Source: Candidatus Thorarchaeota archaeon SMTZ1-83 (GTDB lineage: Archaea > Asgardarchaeota > Thorarchaeia > Thorarchaeales > Thorarchaeaceae). From it: a DNA stretch of 7,359 bases. A model generated the notes under the pieces. That model ran no database searches. It worked only from the letters and a program-made list of their open reading frames with translations, and was not told the origin of the DNA. The DNA is taken from the NCBI GenBank assembly GCA_001563325.1, contig LRSK01000053.1:1-7359 (forward strand), read 5' to 3'. The translations under genes were made by a program, and so were the position numbers. Below, piece after piece: positions 2,150 through 7,359 of this stretch. The stretch's first letter is position 1; each line of letters begins with the position of its first letter.

Positions 2150-2818
2150 TTGAGTAATTCCAAGGAACGAAGACTGGAGAGAGAAAGGAAACAACGTCGG
2201 GAATCAATAATCGACACTGCTGAAAGGTTCTTCGTGGATCAAGGCTATGAACAGACGATGGTTGACAAGGTCGCAATCGAGGCCGGATACACGAAGGCGA
2301 CAATCTACAACTACTTCGAGTCGAAGGAAGACCTCTTCGTTGCTGCCGCGGCCAGGGGCTTTGAGATCCTGTTTCGTATAATGAAGGCCCACTTGGACAG
2401 ACCAGACGTCAAGTATGAGCTGCGGTCCCTAGGAGACGCCTACCTCACTTTCGTGGAGAAGCACAGGGGCCATGCCGGACTGATCGACTCAGGACAAGTC
2501 GGCGTGGCGCTTGCGAGAATCTCAATCAAGGAAGAAACGCGAGAGGACTTGAGTGAGAGCGAGGCTGAGCTCAGGGGGCATCAGCTGAAGATTCAGGAAC
2601 TTATGACTGATGTCATAATGAACACGATGAGAGAGTCTGGAGTTGAGAAGAAGGTTGGCACTTTCCCTGTCATCATGGCCCTCAGCAGCATAGGGGTGGC
2701 AATCAGGGAGATGGTAATGAGAGTGGAGAGAGGAACCCAGACCGAGAGGGAAACCAGAGAGTACCTGAATGTCCTGTTCAACATCATAGACAACGGGTTG
2801 AAACACTACAGCAAATGA
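2150..2818 (+). CDS. TetR/AcrR-family transcriptional regulator
   Basis: This 222-residue protein has the standard TetR layout. A basic N-terminal arm (residues 1-17) is followed by the TetR_N helix-turn-helix at about 18-64: IIDTAERFFVDQGYEQT, then VDKVAIEAGYTKATIYNYF, then ESKEDLF. The remainder, about 65-222, is an all-helical ligand-binding and dimerisation part of usual length, with no recognised ligand. The start is TTG: an in-frame stop lies at 2141-2143, and the next ATG would cut into the DNA-binding domain. The flavodoxin gene follows 12 bases after the stop, and an operator-like inverted repeat lies upstream, so it probably represses its own operon and responds to a small molecule linked to the redox genes it precedes. 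The ligand cannot be predicted. Confidence 0.93.
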   Translation: MSNSKERRLERERKQRRESIIDTAERFFVDQGYEQTMVDKVAIEAGYTKATIYNYFESKEDLFVAAAARGFEILFRIMKAHLDRPDVKYELRSLGDAYLTFVEKHRGHAGLIDSGQVGVALARISIKEETREDLSESEAELRGHQLKIQELMTDVIMNTMRESGVEKKVGTFPVIMALSSIGVAIREMVMRVERGTQTERETREYLNVLFNIIDNGLKHYSK

Positions 2819-2830
2819 AGAGGATTTGAG

Positions 2831-3307
2831 ATGACACGTGCAATAGTACTATACCATTCGCTACATGGAAACACTGGGAAAGTGGCCATGAGCCTAGCAA
2901 AGGGAATTGAAGAAGCAGGAGCTGAAGTCGACTGCCTGAGCATCGATGAAGTCGATTTCGGTCGAGTGTCGGAATACGACTTCATAGCGATAGGTGGTCC
3001 GACACATATGATTCGGATGTCCAAGCCCATGAAGGAATTCCTGGAGAAACTCCAGTCTGTCGACCTACGAGGGAAGAAGGGATTCGCCTTTGATACGAGA
3101 ATCCAATCTAGGATGAACAAGAAGAGTTGGGGAGGCCTAGAAAACAGCGCCGCGAGAAGAATCGAGGGTAAGATGAAGAAGATGAAGATGGAGATTGTCC
3201 GGCACCGGAAGTCTGCCATCGTGAACGGAAGAGAGGGGCCTCTTGAGGAAGGAACTGAGAAGATGTTCCGCCGGATTGGGTCTGAGATTGCGGAGGTGAT
3301 TGCTTGA
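2831..3307 (+). CDS. Flavodoxin-family protein
   Basis: This 158-residue protein has a complete flavodoxin fold. It opens with a beta strand (RAIVLYH) leading into the FMN phosphate-binding loop SLHGNTG (residues 10-16). GGPTHMIRMSKPMKEFL (55-71) carries the second FMN-contacting loop, and FDTR (87-90) with a nearby W100 follows the next strand. The GPLEEGTEK stretch near the end is typical of stand-alone flavodoxin-domain proteins that act as cytoplasmic one- or two-electron carriers or quinone-type reductases. An unusual Lys/Met-rich patch (GKMKKMKM, about 113-120) adds positive charge. AGAGGA lies six bases before the ATG. It sits between the TetR gene and a small membrane protein whose TTG start overlaps its TGA stop, so the three are cotranscribed and the last two translationally coupled. 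The redox partner is unknown. Confidence 0.9.
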   Translation: MTRAIVLYHSLHGNTGKVAMSLAKGIEEAGAEVDCLSIDEVDFGRVSEYDFIAIGGPTHMIRMSKPMKEFLEKLQSVDLRGKKGFAFDTRIQSRMNKKSWGGLENSAARRIEGKMKKMKMEIVRHRKSAIVNGREGPLEEGTEKMFRRIGSEIAEVIA

Positions 3308-3540
3308 GTTTCTGGGCACTGTTCGGGATTTCGATTGGTGGCGTCTTCGGAGTCTACCTGATATTGGCGATTGTGATGGTATTGAGGCAGAAGATGACAC
3401 CAAAGTCGGCTCTCAAGTGGTTCTTTGTCCTGTTCGTAGTGGCCGCCGTCGTTGGTTGGTTCGGCTTCATGGGATACCACTTCATGAGCACAGGAAACGT
3501 CCCCTTGCCTCCATGCAGTGGTAGTGGCTGTCACGGCTAG
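3304..3540 (+). CDS. Small two-helix membrane protein with C-terminal CX4CH motif
   Basis: The TTG at 3304 overlaps the flavodoxin stop as TTGA, giving a 78-residue protein. Residues 4-27 and 39-58 are membrane helices. The loop between them (RQKMTPKSALK) has four positive charges, so it should face the cytoplasm, placing both termini outside. The external tail ends PPCSGSGCHG: C71, C76, H77. CX4CH is a known variant of the haem c attachment motif CXXCH, found for example in some multihaem cytochromes c3, and H59 or M61 just after the second helix could serve as ligands. Other readings are a metal site or a simple disulfide. The coupling to a flavodoxin supports a redox role, but the haem idea is an inference. 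No named family is recognised. Confidence 0.75.
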   Translation: MSFWALFGISIGGVFGVYLILAIVMVLRQKMTPKSALKWFFVLFVVAAVVGWFGFMGYHFMSTGNVPLPPCSGSGCHG

Positions 3541-3592
3541 ATCTACTGGTTTTCCCGGGCCGGACGAAACGTTCAAAAGCATCTTTGCACAT

Positions 3593-3633
3593 GGATTAAC
3601 CGATATCGGTTAATAACCAATTCTGGTTAATCC
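3593..3633. promoter_or_regulatory. Tandem palindromic operator overlapping the TATA box
   Basis: Two adjacent 17-bp units, TTAACCGATATCGGTTA (3596-3612) and ATAACCAATTCTGGTTA (3613-3629), each contain TAACC-N6-GGTTA. The first lies within the perfect 20-base palindrome ATTAACCGATATCGGTTAAT (3595-3614). The outer ends also mirror each other: GGATTAACC at 3593-3601 and GGTTAATCC at 3625-3633. The segment between the units, TTAATAA (3610-3616), fits a TATA box about 27 bases before the ATG at 3640, which would give a leaderless mRNA. A protein bound here would exclude TBP, and the HTH protein encoded directly downstream is the likely binder. The array lies in the gap between the TetR operon and the HTH operon. 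Confidence 0.72.
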
Positions 3634-3639
3634 TTGGAG

Positions 3640-4122
3640 ATGTGCGTGGTCGTCTTGTTCAAGACTCTCAAGTATCCAACGAAGACACAGAGTCTGATCT
3701 GGTTCAAGAGAAGGATGAAGGTCAGACCCTTTGAGATTGCAGAGGAACTGAAAGTATCCAGAGCCTTTGTGAGCAAGAGTCAGCGGATAGCGAATCAGAG
3801 AATCAAGCGACTCATGGAACATGCTGCATCCATCAACCGCGTCGAGCTGGCGAAGGTCAGCCCTCAACATGGGTTTGCATTTGGCTACTGTCCCAGCCAC
3901 GACGCAGACACCTACATCACCTTCTCGCCAAAGATTGGCGTTCAGATCTGGCTGGACCACATAGGGGACTGTGGCAGCTGCAGTCAGAATCAGGAGTGCG
4001 AACGAATTCTTCGGGCACTTGCAGACGATTGGGGTCTCAAGATCACTGAGGGAGTACCTCCAACAGTGAAGGCGAAGCGTCTTTTTGAAACCATAATGGG
4101 GGAGTTGAAATGGCGAGCGTAA
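3640..4122 (+). CDS. Helix-turn-helix regulator with Cys/His cluster
   Basis: From ATG 3640 this gives 160 residues; a TTG at 3634 in the same frame would add two. ATG was chosen because the TATA-like TTAATAA is at the right distance for a leaderless start; neither start has a well-spaced Shine-Dalgarno site. The N-terminal third (about residues 14-60) is an HTH of the sigma-70-region-4/Tfx-like style: EIAEELKVSRAFVSKSQRIA is the helix-turn-helix core. The rest (about 70-160) contains CPSH (C84, H87) and CGSCSQNQEC (C111, C114, C120), which could bind a metal or cluster or sense redox. The tail is acidic then basic with no family I can name. The gene follows a double operator, and its last 13 bases overlap the next gene, so it probably regulates its own membrane-protein operon. 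Confidence 0.7.
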   Translation: MCVVVLFKTLKYPTKTQSLIWFKRRMKVRPFEIAEELKVSRAFVSKSQRIANQRIKRLMEHAASINRVELAKVSPQHGFAFGYCPSHDADTYITFSPKIGVQIWLDHIGDCGSCSQNQECERILRALADDWGLKITEGVPPTVKAKRLFETIMGELKWRA

Positions 4123-6077
4123 GAGAGCGAGTGGAATCGCTGGTGGCCGCGATCAAGGCATGCAGGATACCCTTCTTGTTGCCGGGAGATGCAGGGAGTC
4201 TGAGGAAAGGTGTCGTCGACTGGCAGCCAGATTATGGAAGGCTTCGGGAGGTGCTCATGGTCCTGCTTCTGGCAATGCTGTTCACTCATTTCATAGGAAT
4301 GATACCACCCTACTCGTATACCTATACGGATGCACAGTATGAGGTCGTTGACAGGACTGACATCGCGGGCAGTCCCGGGTTCATACTAGAATCGAATGCA
4401 CAGCTTTCAAGTCACGAGGTTGTACTCTTGAATGAGTCACCAACAGCAGAGAACGGCAGTTGGCGAGCACGGAGTATCAACTACACGGTTCCGGTCTACT
4501 CACCCTATGGGTTCTTCGTCCGTTCACCACCTGACCAGAGTGATGGAGTGAAACTGTATCTTCGTCAAGAAGGCGTCCAGTACAACACGCATATGATTAT
4601 TCCACTCCCCGACTTCTCACGCGTGGTGTTCATTGCCAAGTTCCAGTGCCTGCACGGTTCTGCTGATTTCGTCCTGGAGATTCGGTTTGAGGATCTTCTG
4701 ACATATTCCGTCACTGACGAACTTACGTATAGGGACCACATTTCTTTGTCAGAGGGAGAGGAAGGAACCCTTACGTTTGAGGTCCCGCTCGCACTCCTGA
4801 GTACATTCTATGAAGTACTGTCAACCAGAGCTGCGATTGACATCGAGATTGCGACCACTACTGAGGCGACTGTCAACGTCAAGCCACTAGTCGTGACTGC
4901 TTCTTCAGCTGATTCTCTAGTGCCTGTCATAGTTGACATGAGATCCACAGACAACGAGAGTCTGTTTGAACTTCACGGCGGAGTCTGGAGATCGCGCTAT
5001 CCAGCCCTAATTGTGGTCCGAACCGATAGAACAGAGAAACCGCGCATTCTAGCTCCTAGATGCTCCAACGACACCGTATACTTGGCGCCCGGAGAGTATT
5101 CGGTGGTATCTGGATGGTCCAGAGGGTGGTACTTCTATTCGGAGGAGTATGACATAACTCTCGAAAGCACTGTCGAGTTCAACATGTCCTTGGCAGAAGA
5201 CATGATGTATAAAGCAGCCATCCTCTTACCGTCGACTCGCATCCACGTAGTTGTTGAGCCAAACTTGCTCGTTTCACAGTACGAGGTGCTCACTTGGGAT
5301 TATGACACCCTTTATTGGGAGTGGCTTATGCTTGGCCCCATACCTGACACCTTCACTCTACCTCCTACCTTGGAAGCAATCGGTATTGACTTCCGTTCGC
5401 GGGGCTACTCTCCCTACTACGAGTACATAGGAAACGGATATGGAAGTCATGTGGTAACGAACGAGCAAGAGGTCGCTACAGTGCTGGTGACTTTTCCGGT
5501 GATACAAGTCCTAGGTCTTGCAGTCGACTACATGGGGCTTGTTCAGTCGCTGCTTCTAGCACTGACATATGCTGTCTTCGTGCTTTCGCTCAGAAGAAGT
5601 CAACCGGATGATGAATCGGCGCCGTGGTATCAAGACCCTCGACTAGGACCAGCCATGCTTCTGGGCTTGAGCATCTTCTTTCCATGGTTCACTTCAGTAG
5701 AGAACTACTACGGAATCTGGCCTGTCGATGTTTACTCAGAACTCAGACTACCGATTCTTTGGATTCTCAAGTGGACGCACACCGGTCTCTCCGTCCCAGC
5801 CTCTCTTGGAGACCCGGGTGGTGCCCTCTTCATTCCCGTGTTAGTGCTATTCTGGGCCCCATTCACCTACATCGTAGTTAGAATCGGCAAGACGGGGCGA
5901 TGGGACCTTCAAAAATGGGACCTACGAGCATTGGTGTGGTTGGCACTACTTGGCCTGGTTTCGATAGTCTTCGGACTCTATCTTGGGTTTAGAGTAGGAC
6001 TCGGCGCTGTGTTGGTAATCTGCGCACTTCCTTTCTGGCTCATTCAGTATGTCATGCGTGGAAGGAGATGGGATTGA
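4110..6077 (+). CDS. Multi-pass membrane protein with large probably extracellular domain
   Basis: This 655-residue protein has no family I recognise. A charged N-terminal 45 residues precedes one membrane helix (about 47-66). Residues 67-460 are hydrophilic, rich in beta-type sequence and aromatic residues, and carry six N-glycosylation sequons (N108, N115, N124, N282, N320, N358), which suits an outward-facing domain. The C-terminal 190 residues hold about five further helices (near 470-494, 511-528, 571-591, 607-627 and 628-648) and a basic tail. The ATG has GGAG five bases upstream and overlaps the HTH gene by 13 bases; its TGA shares one base with the ATG of the propeller gene. This coupling implies equal production of all three. 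A surface sensor, transport-associated protein or envelope organiser are all possible; function is unknown. Confidence 0.8.
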   Translation: MASVRERVESLVAAIKACRIPFLLPGDAGSLRKGVVDWQPDYGRLREVLMVLLLAMLFTHFIGMIPPYSYTYTDAQYEVVDRTDIAGSPGFILESNAQLSSHEVVLLNESPTAENGSWRARSINYTVPVYSPYGFFVRSPPDQSDGVKLYLRQEGVQYNTHMIIPLPDFSRVVFIAKFQCLHGSADFVLEIRFEDLLTYSVTDELTYRDHISLSEGEEGTLTFEVPLALLSTFYEVLSTRAAIDIEIATTTEATVNVKPLVVTASSADSLVPVIVDMRSTDNESLFELHGGVWRSRYPALIVVRTDRTEKPRILAPRCSNDTVYLAPGEYSVVSGWSRGWYFYSEEYDITLESTVEFNMSLAEDMMYKAAILLPSTRIHVVVEPNLLVSQYEVLTWDYDTLYWEWLMLGPIPDTFTLPPTLEAIGIDFRSRGYSPYYEYIGNGYGSHVVTNEQEVATVLVTFPVIQVLGLAVDYMGLVQSLLLALTYAVFVLSLRRSQPDDESAPWYQDPRLGPAMLLGLSIFFPWFTSVENYYGIWPVDVYSELRLPILWILKWTHTGLSVPASLGDPGGALFIPVLVLFWAPFTYIVVRIGKTGRWDLQKWDLRALVWLALLGLVSIVFGLYLGFRVGLGAVLVICALPFWLIQYVMRGRRWD

Positions 6078-7359
6078 TGAGATTGCGAGTCATCGTGATC
6101 CTGATCATCGGACTGATCATCTCGGTAAGCGTGATGCATAGTCCAGCTGTGTTTGGAGGGCCAGAACCAGATAGAGGGAGTTCATACACTCCCAGTCAAG
6201 AGGTGGTTGGAGACTGGTCTGTATTATGGGACACAACTCAGGATGACCTTGGCTACGACGTCGTGACTGACTCGGTGGGCAACGTGTATGTGTCCGGAGT
6301 GAGTGGTTCTAGCTTGATTCTTCTGAAGTACAGCAAATATGGCACGCTGCTTTGGAACAGGACCTGGGGCTCAGGCCGTTCAGGCTATGAGAATGCATTG
6401 ACCATTGGCCCCGGCGGCTATGTATACGTGGTTTCCAGTTATCTGTCCCCATCAAACAACAAATCGGATGCTCTGCTCGTCAAGTACAGTCAGACGGGCA
6501 GCCTTGAATGGAATGCTACCTGGGGAGGAGTGGAAGATGATTTTGGAAGGGGTATAGCAATCGGTCCGGATGGACACATATTCATCGCTGGTGGGACTAG
6601 TAGCTCTGGTGCTGGTGGATACGACATGTTCGTGGCGGAGTTCAACTCCCTTGGAACTACACTCTGGTCGACCACATGGGGATACACTCTGGATCAAGAG
6701 GCAAACGACATAGTTCTTGATGAAGCTGGCACAATCTACTTGGCGGGGTGGGGCGTTCCAAATGGCGGATCAGATTTTGATGCATACGTCGTAGGACTGG
6801 CATCCGACGGGTCTGAGATATGGAACTACAACTGGGGAGAGTATTCAGGACCACAGAGGGCATATGCCATTGATAGACATGAGAGTGGCAATCTAGCTGT
6901 AGTAGGATACACAGTGCTGGATGATGCTCCAAATGGATACTTGCTCCTTGAACTCAATGCGACTGGGGGTGTGCTCTATTCGGAACACGACTATCCGATG
7001 GCGGAAGACTTCGGGGCGACAAGTGGGAATGACGTCATCTATCTGTCACCTGGCTACATCCAGATAGTTGGAGAGAGCGAGGTCGGATGGATGGCTTTCA
7101 CAAGAGAGGGACCATACGGTGGAGGTTCGGGAGGATACGGCACCATCGGTGGCAGCTTGCAGGGAGTCTGCAAAGGTGCTGGAGGAGAGTTGTTCTATGT
7201 CGGATATGCATCCTGTAGAGCTGCATCCAAGTTCATCACACTTGACAAGAATCTGTTCGCGGAGGGTGACTGGGAGAGTCCTGAACCAGAGAGGCTCTGG
7301 GACTATGATGGAAGTGGAGTGATTAACCCGCTCACAGCAGCCGACCTCGATGCAGATGG
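6077..7359 (+). CDS. Secreted SBBP-type beta-propeller protein, C-terminus cut by window edge
   Basis: The ATG at 6077 overlaps the previous stop as TGATG, with GGAG nine bases upstream. The frame stays open for 427 codons to the window end. Residues 1-26 form a signal peptide (RLRV, then a long Ile/Leu/Val core, ending AVFG). Residues about 48-345 are six repeats of some 50 residues: a strand pair such as AIGPDGHIFIAGG, then a strand like YDMFVAEFNSLG, then a closing WxxTWG motif (W93-G98, W145-G150, W197-G202, W250-G254). This is the SBBP/PQQ-like propeller pattern. A Gly-rich segment (about 346-360) leads to DYDGSG (409-414) and DLDADG (423-428), which resemble the Ca-binding loops of dockerin or TSP3 repeats. 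It is probably an extracellular binding or adhesion protein; its ligand and its full length cannot be seen here. Confidence 0.85.
   Translation, partial: MRLRVIVILIIGLIISVSVMHSPAVFGGPEPDRGSSYTPSQEVVGDWSVLWDTTQDDLGYDVVTDSVGNVYVSGVSGSSLILLKYSKYGTLLWNRTWGSGRSGYENALTIGPGGYVYVVSSYLSPSNNKSDALLVKYSQTGSLEWNATWGGVEDDFGRGIAIGPDGHIFIAGGTSSSGAGGYDMFVAEFNSLGTTLWSTTWGYTLDQEANDIVLDEAGTIYLAGWGVPNGGSDFDAYVVGLASDGSEIWNYNWGEYSGPQRAYAIDRHESGNLAVVGYTVLDDAPNGYLLLELNATGGVLYSEHDYPMAEDFGATSGNDVIYLSPGYIQIVGESEVGWMAFTREGPYGGGSGGYGTIGGSLQGVCKGAGGELFYVGYASCRAASKFITLDKNLFAEGDWESPEPERLWDYDGSGVINPLTAADLDAD

Follow-up and report, generated by a model that had tools for sequence, protein, structure and literature searches.

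A double palindrome upstream of a thorarchaeal HTH gene as the likely operator of a conserved regulator and membrane-protein gene pair

The stretch of DNA analysed here (the window; 7,359 nt, contig LRSK01000053.1 of Candidatus Thorarchaeota archaeon SMTZ1-83) carries two adjacent palindromes in front of a gene for a helix-turn-helix (HTH) protein, which raises the questions of what binds them and what the operon behind them is for. To our knowledge, it is understood in few cases how archaea pass a signal from the cell surface to a promoter, and Asgard archaea are the least understood in this respect. The explanation favoured here, with a probability of roughly 0.7, is that this self-controlled operon is a conserved two-gene membrane-to-promoter signalling unit, which may report cell-surface events to genes in Asgard and in methane-producing archaea. 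It builds on the operator, its conservation, its near-exclusivity, the gene order and a tail motif of the membrane protein. The features of the window are listed in Table 1.

Table 1. Coordinates of the features in the window
Feature	Position	Strand	Basis
Candidate TATA box TTCAAAAG	3572-3579	+	sequence; alternative to TTAATAAC (3610-3617); not settled
Whole operator region, outer inverted repeat GGATTAACC / GGTTAATCC	3593-3633	none	read from sequence
Operator unit 1, TAACC-N6-GGTTA, TAACCGATATCGGTTA	3597-3612	none	exact; pattern search; kept in relatives
Operator unit 2, TAACC-N6-GGTTA, TAACCAATTCTGGTTA	3614-3629	none	exact; pattern search
GGAG, Shine-Dalgarno-like, 6 nt before GTG 3646	3636-3639	+	read from sequence
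Regulator gene, Tfx-like HTH plus C-terminal domain with H-x3-C-x2-C-x5-C	3646-4122	+	ORF list, profiles, model
Recognition-helix segment VSRAFVSKSQ, codons	3754-3783	+	alignment, helix-type comparison
Codons of H105-x3-C109-x2-C112-x5-C118, candidate metal or Fe-S site	3958-3999	+	53-row alignment; sub-threshold PF10588
Partner gene, 655-aa membrane protein, overlapping the regulator gene	4110-6077	+	ORF list, hydropathy
Cys-Pro tail motif ACRIP, codons, partner residues 17-21	4158-4172	+	tail comparison
Third gene, exported beta-propeller-like protein, runs off the window	6068-7357	+	profiles, clusters, tails

Both units are exact and start 17 bp apart, as the preliminary description had it, and the first is indeed enclosed by a perfect 20-base palindrome (ATTAACCGATATCGGTTAAT, 3595-3614). 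A larger 9-bp mirror had also been reported; its two arms exist (3593-3601 and 3625-3633), but they form an inverted repeat and not a mirror. When any 5-bp arm, a spacer of 3-10 and a distance of up to 60 bp were admitted, units 1 and 2 were the sole pair of identical-arm palindromes in the window, and 3 of 400 dinucleotide shuffles contained any such pair. With two mismatches allowed, the pattern alone was unremarkable (2 in the window vs a shuffle mean of 1.58). The claim that this symmetry is unlikely by chance thus holds for the exact pair and fails for the relaxed pattern; its strength rests on the two exact adjacent copies and, above all, on conservation.

Related loci were collected by a scan of genome contigs, which gave 21 loci; searches of their genomes and of 47 Thor-class and 8 Hermod-class genomes added more, and ten additional stretches were fetched. 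Removal of duplicates left 53 main-clade genes, and dropping the multi-domain L042 left 52 including the window, a set that leaves out the DNA of the closest relatives (75-99% identical). The upstream regions of these HTH homologues were inspected, as had been proposed, with the pattern T[TA][GA][CA][CAT]-N6/7-[GA][GA]TTAA within 220 bp. A site was found at 47 of the 52 Thor- and Hermodarchaeal genes, that is, at 46 of the 51 relatives, against 9 of 1416 equal-sized control pieces of the same loci, mostly coding DNA. No recognisable site was present within 220 bp upstream of five genes (L006, L075, L044, L010 and L070); L001 has one though it offers only 52 bp upstream. Two or more sites occurred at 25 of the 52 loci. 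Their spacing was 36-48 bp in 19 cases, and 17 (window), 23, 33, 82 (twice) and 120 bp in the other six. Since 17 bp is unique to the window in this set without the closest relatives, and the common spacing itself varies, cooperativity is not to be read from the window, and the cooperative repression suggested earlier is left without support.

The occurrence of such sites in whole genomes was also determined. The pattern GTTGCM-N7-GGTTAAY gave 33 matches in 20 of 52 genomes (reversed control, 16), and by hand count 31 of them have a main-clade gene at most about 200 bp downstream, the exceptions being G022:C1:1039451 and G029:C140:2043. It was absent (0 matches) from all 19 genomes without a main-clade gene. 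For TTAACC-N6/7-GGTTAA, 19 palindromes were found in 15 genomes, 16 at main-clade genes (one beside a partial copy) and three elsewhere, two of these in genomes without the gene. As the reversed control of this palindrome was commoner (36 vs 19), only location speaks in its case. Of 15 matches to the looser TTRCM-N7-GGTTAAY in 5 genomes, 9 lie at regulator genes, and controls gave 27. Neighbouring genes at 12 inspected off-target loci, of which L121 lies at a regulator gene, share nothing; a wider Thor regulon was rejected for want of a consistent neighbour at these loci.

These counts bear on whether the motif stands at this gene by accident, being a promoter element of general use or a site for some other regulator. 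The overlap of the first site with the BRE/TATA region would suit such a role, but it is very improbable given that 31/33 and 16/19 of the whole-genome matches fall at genes of the regulator family, and that genomes without the gene hold none of the first pattern and two of the second. A general promoter element was rejected because the sites are almost private to this gene family. Of an autoregulatory operator one expects symmetry, a place at the regulator gene's promoter, conservation upstream of homologues and rarity elsewhere, and this is what was found. Judged from conservation and near-exclusivity, the double palindrome is very likely the operator of the adjacent HTH gene, and the earlier assignment to the HTH operon is borne out.

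Concerning the promoter, it is common for the first site to extend into the TATA box (GGTTAATTTATA; 29/52 loci by regular expression) and to overlap the BRE position, and second sites sit in the start region. In the window, TTAATAA had been taken as the TATA box of a leaderless start at 3640. This reading was set aside because GGAG precedes GTG 3646 and TTCAAAAG offers an alternative TATA box. The latter stands 15 nt before ATTAACC, a spacing equal to that of TTAAAAG at L046 (by eye). GTG 3646 is the likely start codon of the HTH gene and ATG 3640 a possible one: P0001, a database protein 99% identical, starts at GTG 3646, the annotated starts of P0002, P0004 and P0006 match ATG 3640, and that of P0003 matches TTG 3655.

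The location of the sites over BRE/TATA and the start region suggests that the regulator probably represses its operon. A dimer would sit on each palindrome unit and control the regulator's own operon; bound over promoter and transcript start, it would block TBP/TFB or RNA polymerase. An activator that binds beside the TATA box and recruits TBP/TFB to the operon would agree with the adjacency of GGTTAAY and TATA box in 29 of the 52 loci (regular expression). It is improbable, however, as the second sites in the start region, and the site between TATA and ATG in Methanomicrobia (by eye), occupy usually blocking positions.

The regulator itself has 12 database relatives at E up to 0.001; a source name is given for three of them (one Promethearchaeota, two Thorarchaeota). 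A confident AlphaFold2 model built from 53 sequences (A2; mean pLDDT 92.5) predicts three N-terminal helices, four strands and two helices. The HTH is of Tfx type by a weak profile match of A2 to 8hno (E 0.0015), with tfx 1nr3 at E 0.7. The 8hno match covers profile positions 7-63 only (about 57 positions) and leaves the His-Cys3 C-terminal domain unmatched; a full-length Tfx match was not obtained, and the NCBIfam matches of the window protein include no Tfx family. The protein accordingly resembles the Tfx family and EnfR (8hno) in its N-terminal HTH, and differs from them in the C-terminal domain and in having a membrane partner. EnfR (TON_1525) is described, in the available text, as repressing through a pseudo-palindrome (PMC10570040). 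Pfam gave sub-threshold matches only, among them Sigma70_r4 in 4 of 53 members, which does not establish sigma-70-family identity. In viral contigs, 17 stretches matched a pattern and none was a relative of the regulator.

Within the motif H105-x3-C109-x2-C112-x5-C118, the three Cys are invariant in the 53 rows and the His is kept in at least 90%. In the NuoG N5-type Fe-S site (PF10588) the H-x3-C-x2-C-x5-C residues are the ligands. The window regulator shares this spacing; unlike in NuoG, its motif stays below the curated cut-off (18.8 bits vs 27) and stands isolated in a regulator. Sixteen of the 53 members gave weak PF10588 profile matches (best E 0.0012), all sub-threshold, and membership of this Fe-S family was rejected. 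It may tentatively be considered, at slightly less than even odds, that the site carries Fe-S rather than zinc.

To what extent the regulator can be regarded as the binder was judged from its recognition helix. Residue 8 of the helix segment (Lys/Gln) goes with the left half-site base (C/A) at all 39 scorable loci (26 and 13); a locus with Met at this residue was left out of the count. On the tree, the helix and base traits need four changes each, and the independent helix-base pairs number one on supported branches and three on all branches, so common descent may explain much of the match. The left half-site varies while the right stays constant, contrary to what would be expected of a simple symmetric contact. 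In the best-scoring 30 loci of Methanomicrobia, helix and operator type agree in 30/30 (20 SRQA/GTCAA and 10 TRQG/GTAAA); the two types may be two clades. From the sites upstream of relatives, their near-exclusivity to these genes and the agreement of operator type with helix type, the binder is quite likely the operon's own HTH product, as previously proposed, and autoregulation of the operon is supported at the level of sequence.

The gene order behind the regulator is kept as well. Behind 50 of the 52 regulator genes an ORF was identified, and in 45 of these 50 cases it overlaps the regulator gene by 4 to 34 bp. The partners span many sequence clusters of varying type; by hydropathy count, nearly all contain transmembrane segments, the truncated L046 ORF having none. 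For the window partner, a cytoplasmic N-tail, an exported middle and a C-terminal transmembrane bundle are predicted, and no Pfam family was found. What the partners share is a short tail motif, scored as C.{0,3}P within residues 5-40. It was present in 39/50 Thor/Hermod partners, in 16/19 of a second set made up of L050 and 18 loci from another Asgard lineage, and in 30/30 of the best-scoring Methanomicrobia loci, in 29 of 268 neighbouring control ORFs and in none of nine distant paralogues. Eight of the 11 Thor/Hermod partners without it belong to one tree fork (support 99), the others being L044, L014 and L018. The sequence cluster of the third gene is the tail-bearing partner itself in L002, L023 and others, a fusion that ties the third gene to the system.

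In the mechanism proposed, the cytoplasmic N-tail of the partner (ACRIP in the window) would probably hold or modify the regulator, perhaps at its His-Cys3 site, where a metal is presumed. Events at the variable membrane or exported part would then set the amount of regulator free on the DNA. From these comparisons, that the tail controls the regulator is given an even chance.

Several observations concern the diversity of the partners. The regulators of L046, L048, L056, L061, L063, L064, L072 and L077 form one subclade, whose partners lack the Cys-Pro tail and begin with a cytoplasmic TLYEMv.W..QPWdG domain instead. At L073, four tandem related small membrane proteins stand behind one regulator, and the two that were read are both Cys-tailed (VCRIQP, FCRIHP). 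Of the distant paralogues L051, L065, L066, L079, L081, L083, L084 and L085, several have a TATA box followed by a GTTTAC..GTAAAC-like palindrome, together with a membrane partner that bears a different shared N-terminal tail, RVIKPP..TSGRVFKP, without Cys. By sequence, these paralogues and their partners look like a second, parallel version of the two-gene unit.

The distribution of the unit was then assessed. At E up to 0.001, and with distant paralogues counted, matches were found in 66 of the 227 genomes of the Asgard phylum. Many of the 18 loci of the other Asgard lineage show a TATA box, then a palindrome, then ATG; several have sites on both sides of the TATA box, and L195 holds TAACC-N6-GGTTA itself (all by eye). 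Of 149 Methanomicrobia genomes 69 match, and homologues there carry names such as Methanoregula and Methanospirillum. The 30 loci read there, the best-scoring and not all places, fit GTCAA..TTGAC or GTAAA..TTTAC plus a C[PR] tail in 30/30 cases. Comparison of these loci indicates that the unit of regulator, membrane protein and promoter palindrome recurs in another Asgard lineage and in Methanomicrobia.

In the methanogens the sites are not confined to regulator genes. In 20 of those genomes, GTCAAC-N8-GTTGAC gave 30 matches in 16 genomes (control 2), 16 of them directly at a regulator gene; TGTAAAY-N8-RTTTACA gave 21 matches in 9 genomes (control 0), 8 at regulator genes, in both cases by hand count. 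Among 20 stretches examined around other sites, sites precede Yip1-like membrane genes (L209, L210, L212, L214, L217) and exported-protein genes (L220, L221, L224, L225, L228). At L215 and L218, operator-like palindromes stand before GWCP-tailed membrane genes with no regulator gene directly in front, where it is possible that one regulator is shared by several tails. The remaining stretches gave no clear target. Pfam on 8 partner or target proteins returned above cut-off only Yip1 (L209) and DUF6159 (L215); CARDB, Ig-like and lectin-like matches were below it, and three proteins had no match.

All the operator evidence would equally fit a plain autoregulator, with the membrane protein merely co-transcribed and the Cys-Pro tail serving another use, e.g. 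targeting or membrane insertion, and the tail-less partners of one subclade of eight would agree with it. Such an arrangement is unlikely, given that the tail motif is common to partners of many unrelated clusters and rare in neighbouring ORFs, and that methanogen operators also precede tail-bearing genes without a regulator directly in front (L215, L218). Beyond the signalling unit itself, the data may point, with as much weight for as against, to an undescribed archaeal membrane-to-promoter family of Asgard archaea and Methanomicrobia. Here a short Cys-Pro tail, transplanted onto a wide range of unrelated membrane and surface proteins, would hold a metal-binding HTH repressor, and a separate operator would insulate each pair; in methanogens the family would also control membrane and surface-protein genes.

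Among the closest parallels is a bacterial one. In the available text on Clostridium thermocellum, sigma-I/RsgI comprises an autoregulated regulator gene followed by a gene for a membrane protein that has its N-terminal part in the cytoplasm and varies in its outer part, with several paralogous pairs per genome (PMC4711584). The pairing of regulator and membrane partner in sigma-I/RsgI (and in ECF sigma/anti-sigma), with its gene order and operators, appears to be matched here. For the binding of the regulator by the partner's cytoplasmic part in such pairs, the shared tail motif would be the candidate counterpart. In place of a sigma factor such as the sigma-I described there, the archaeal unit has a Tfx-like HTH protein that carries a His-Cys3 motif, and unlike RsgI, whose domain has about 165 residues, the archaeal tail is a short Cys-Pro motif. 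Our reading, by analogy with that description, is that the unit would work like sigma-I/RsgI while being built from unrelated proteins. Membrane-to-promoter control in archaea is exemplified by the transmembrane transcription regulators ArnR/ArnR1 of Sulfolobus, described in the accessible parts of PMC10269533 and PMC13286277. There the HTH lies within the membrane protein, whereas the window unit consists of two separate proteins, and these parts hold no such regulator/membrane-partner pair. Titles and abstracts of the open-licence literature likewise gave no recognised earlier description of such a pair. The unit provides an operator, its regulator and a partner, as well as a short motif that can be mutated, and its presence in Methanomicrobia places it in organisms more amenable to experiment than uncultured Asgards. 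More surface sensors can be sought through the tail, which recurs on unrelated proteins.

Just upstream of the operator (2150-3540), genes for a TetR-family regulator, a flavodoxin-like protein and a small membrane protein stand in a row; no link of these genes to the operator was seen. A further observation concerns translation starts. Nine of the 52 loci (L002, L023, L003, L011, L070, L004, L008, L012 and L014) carry ACG at the position of the HTH gene's ATG start in other members, and these nine relatives appear, from their sequence, to start at ACG; a literature search on ACG start codons in archaea gave nothing related. The database copy of the L002 gene (P0012) is without the N-terminus. 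L002, L023, L003 and L070 have no in-frame ATG, GTG or TTG up to the conserved RYP, and the sole in-frame alternative at L011 is a TTG four codons further on. AGGAGG, GGAGG or GAGG is found 8-9 nt ahead of the ACG, and the fully scored Shine-Dalgarno sequence is stronger than in most ATG members, as if compensating.
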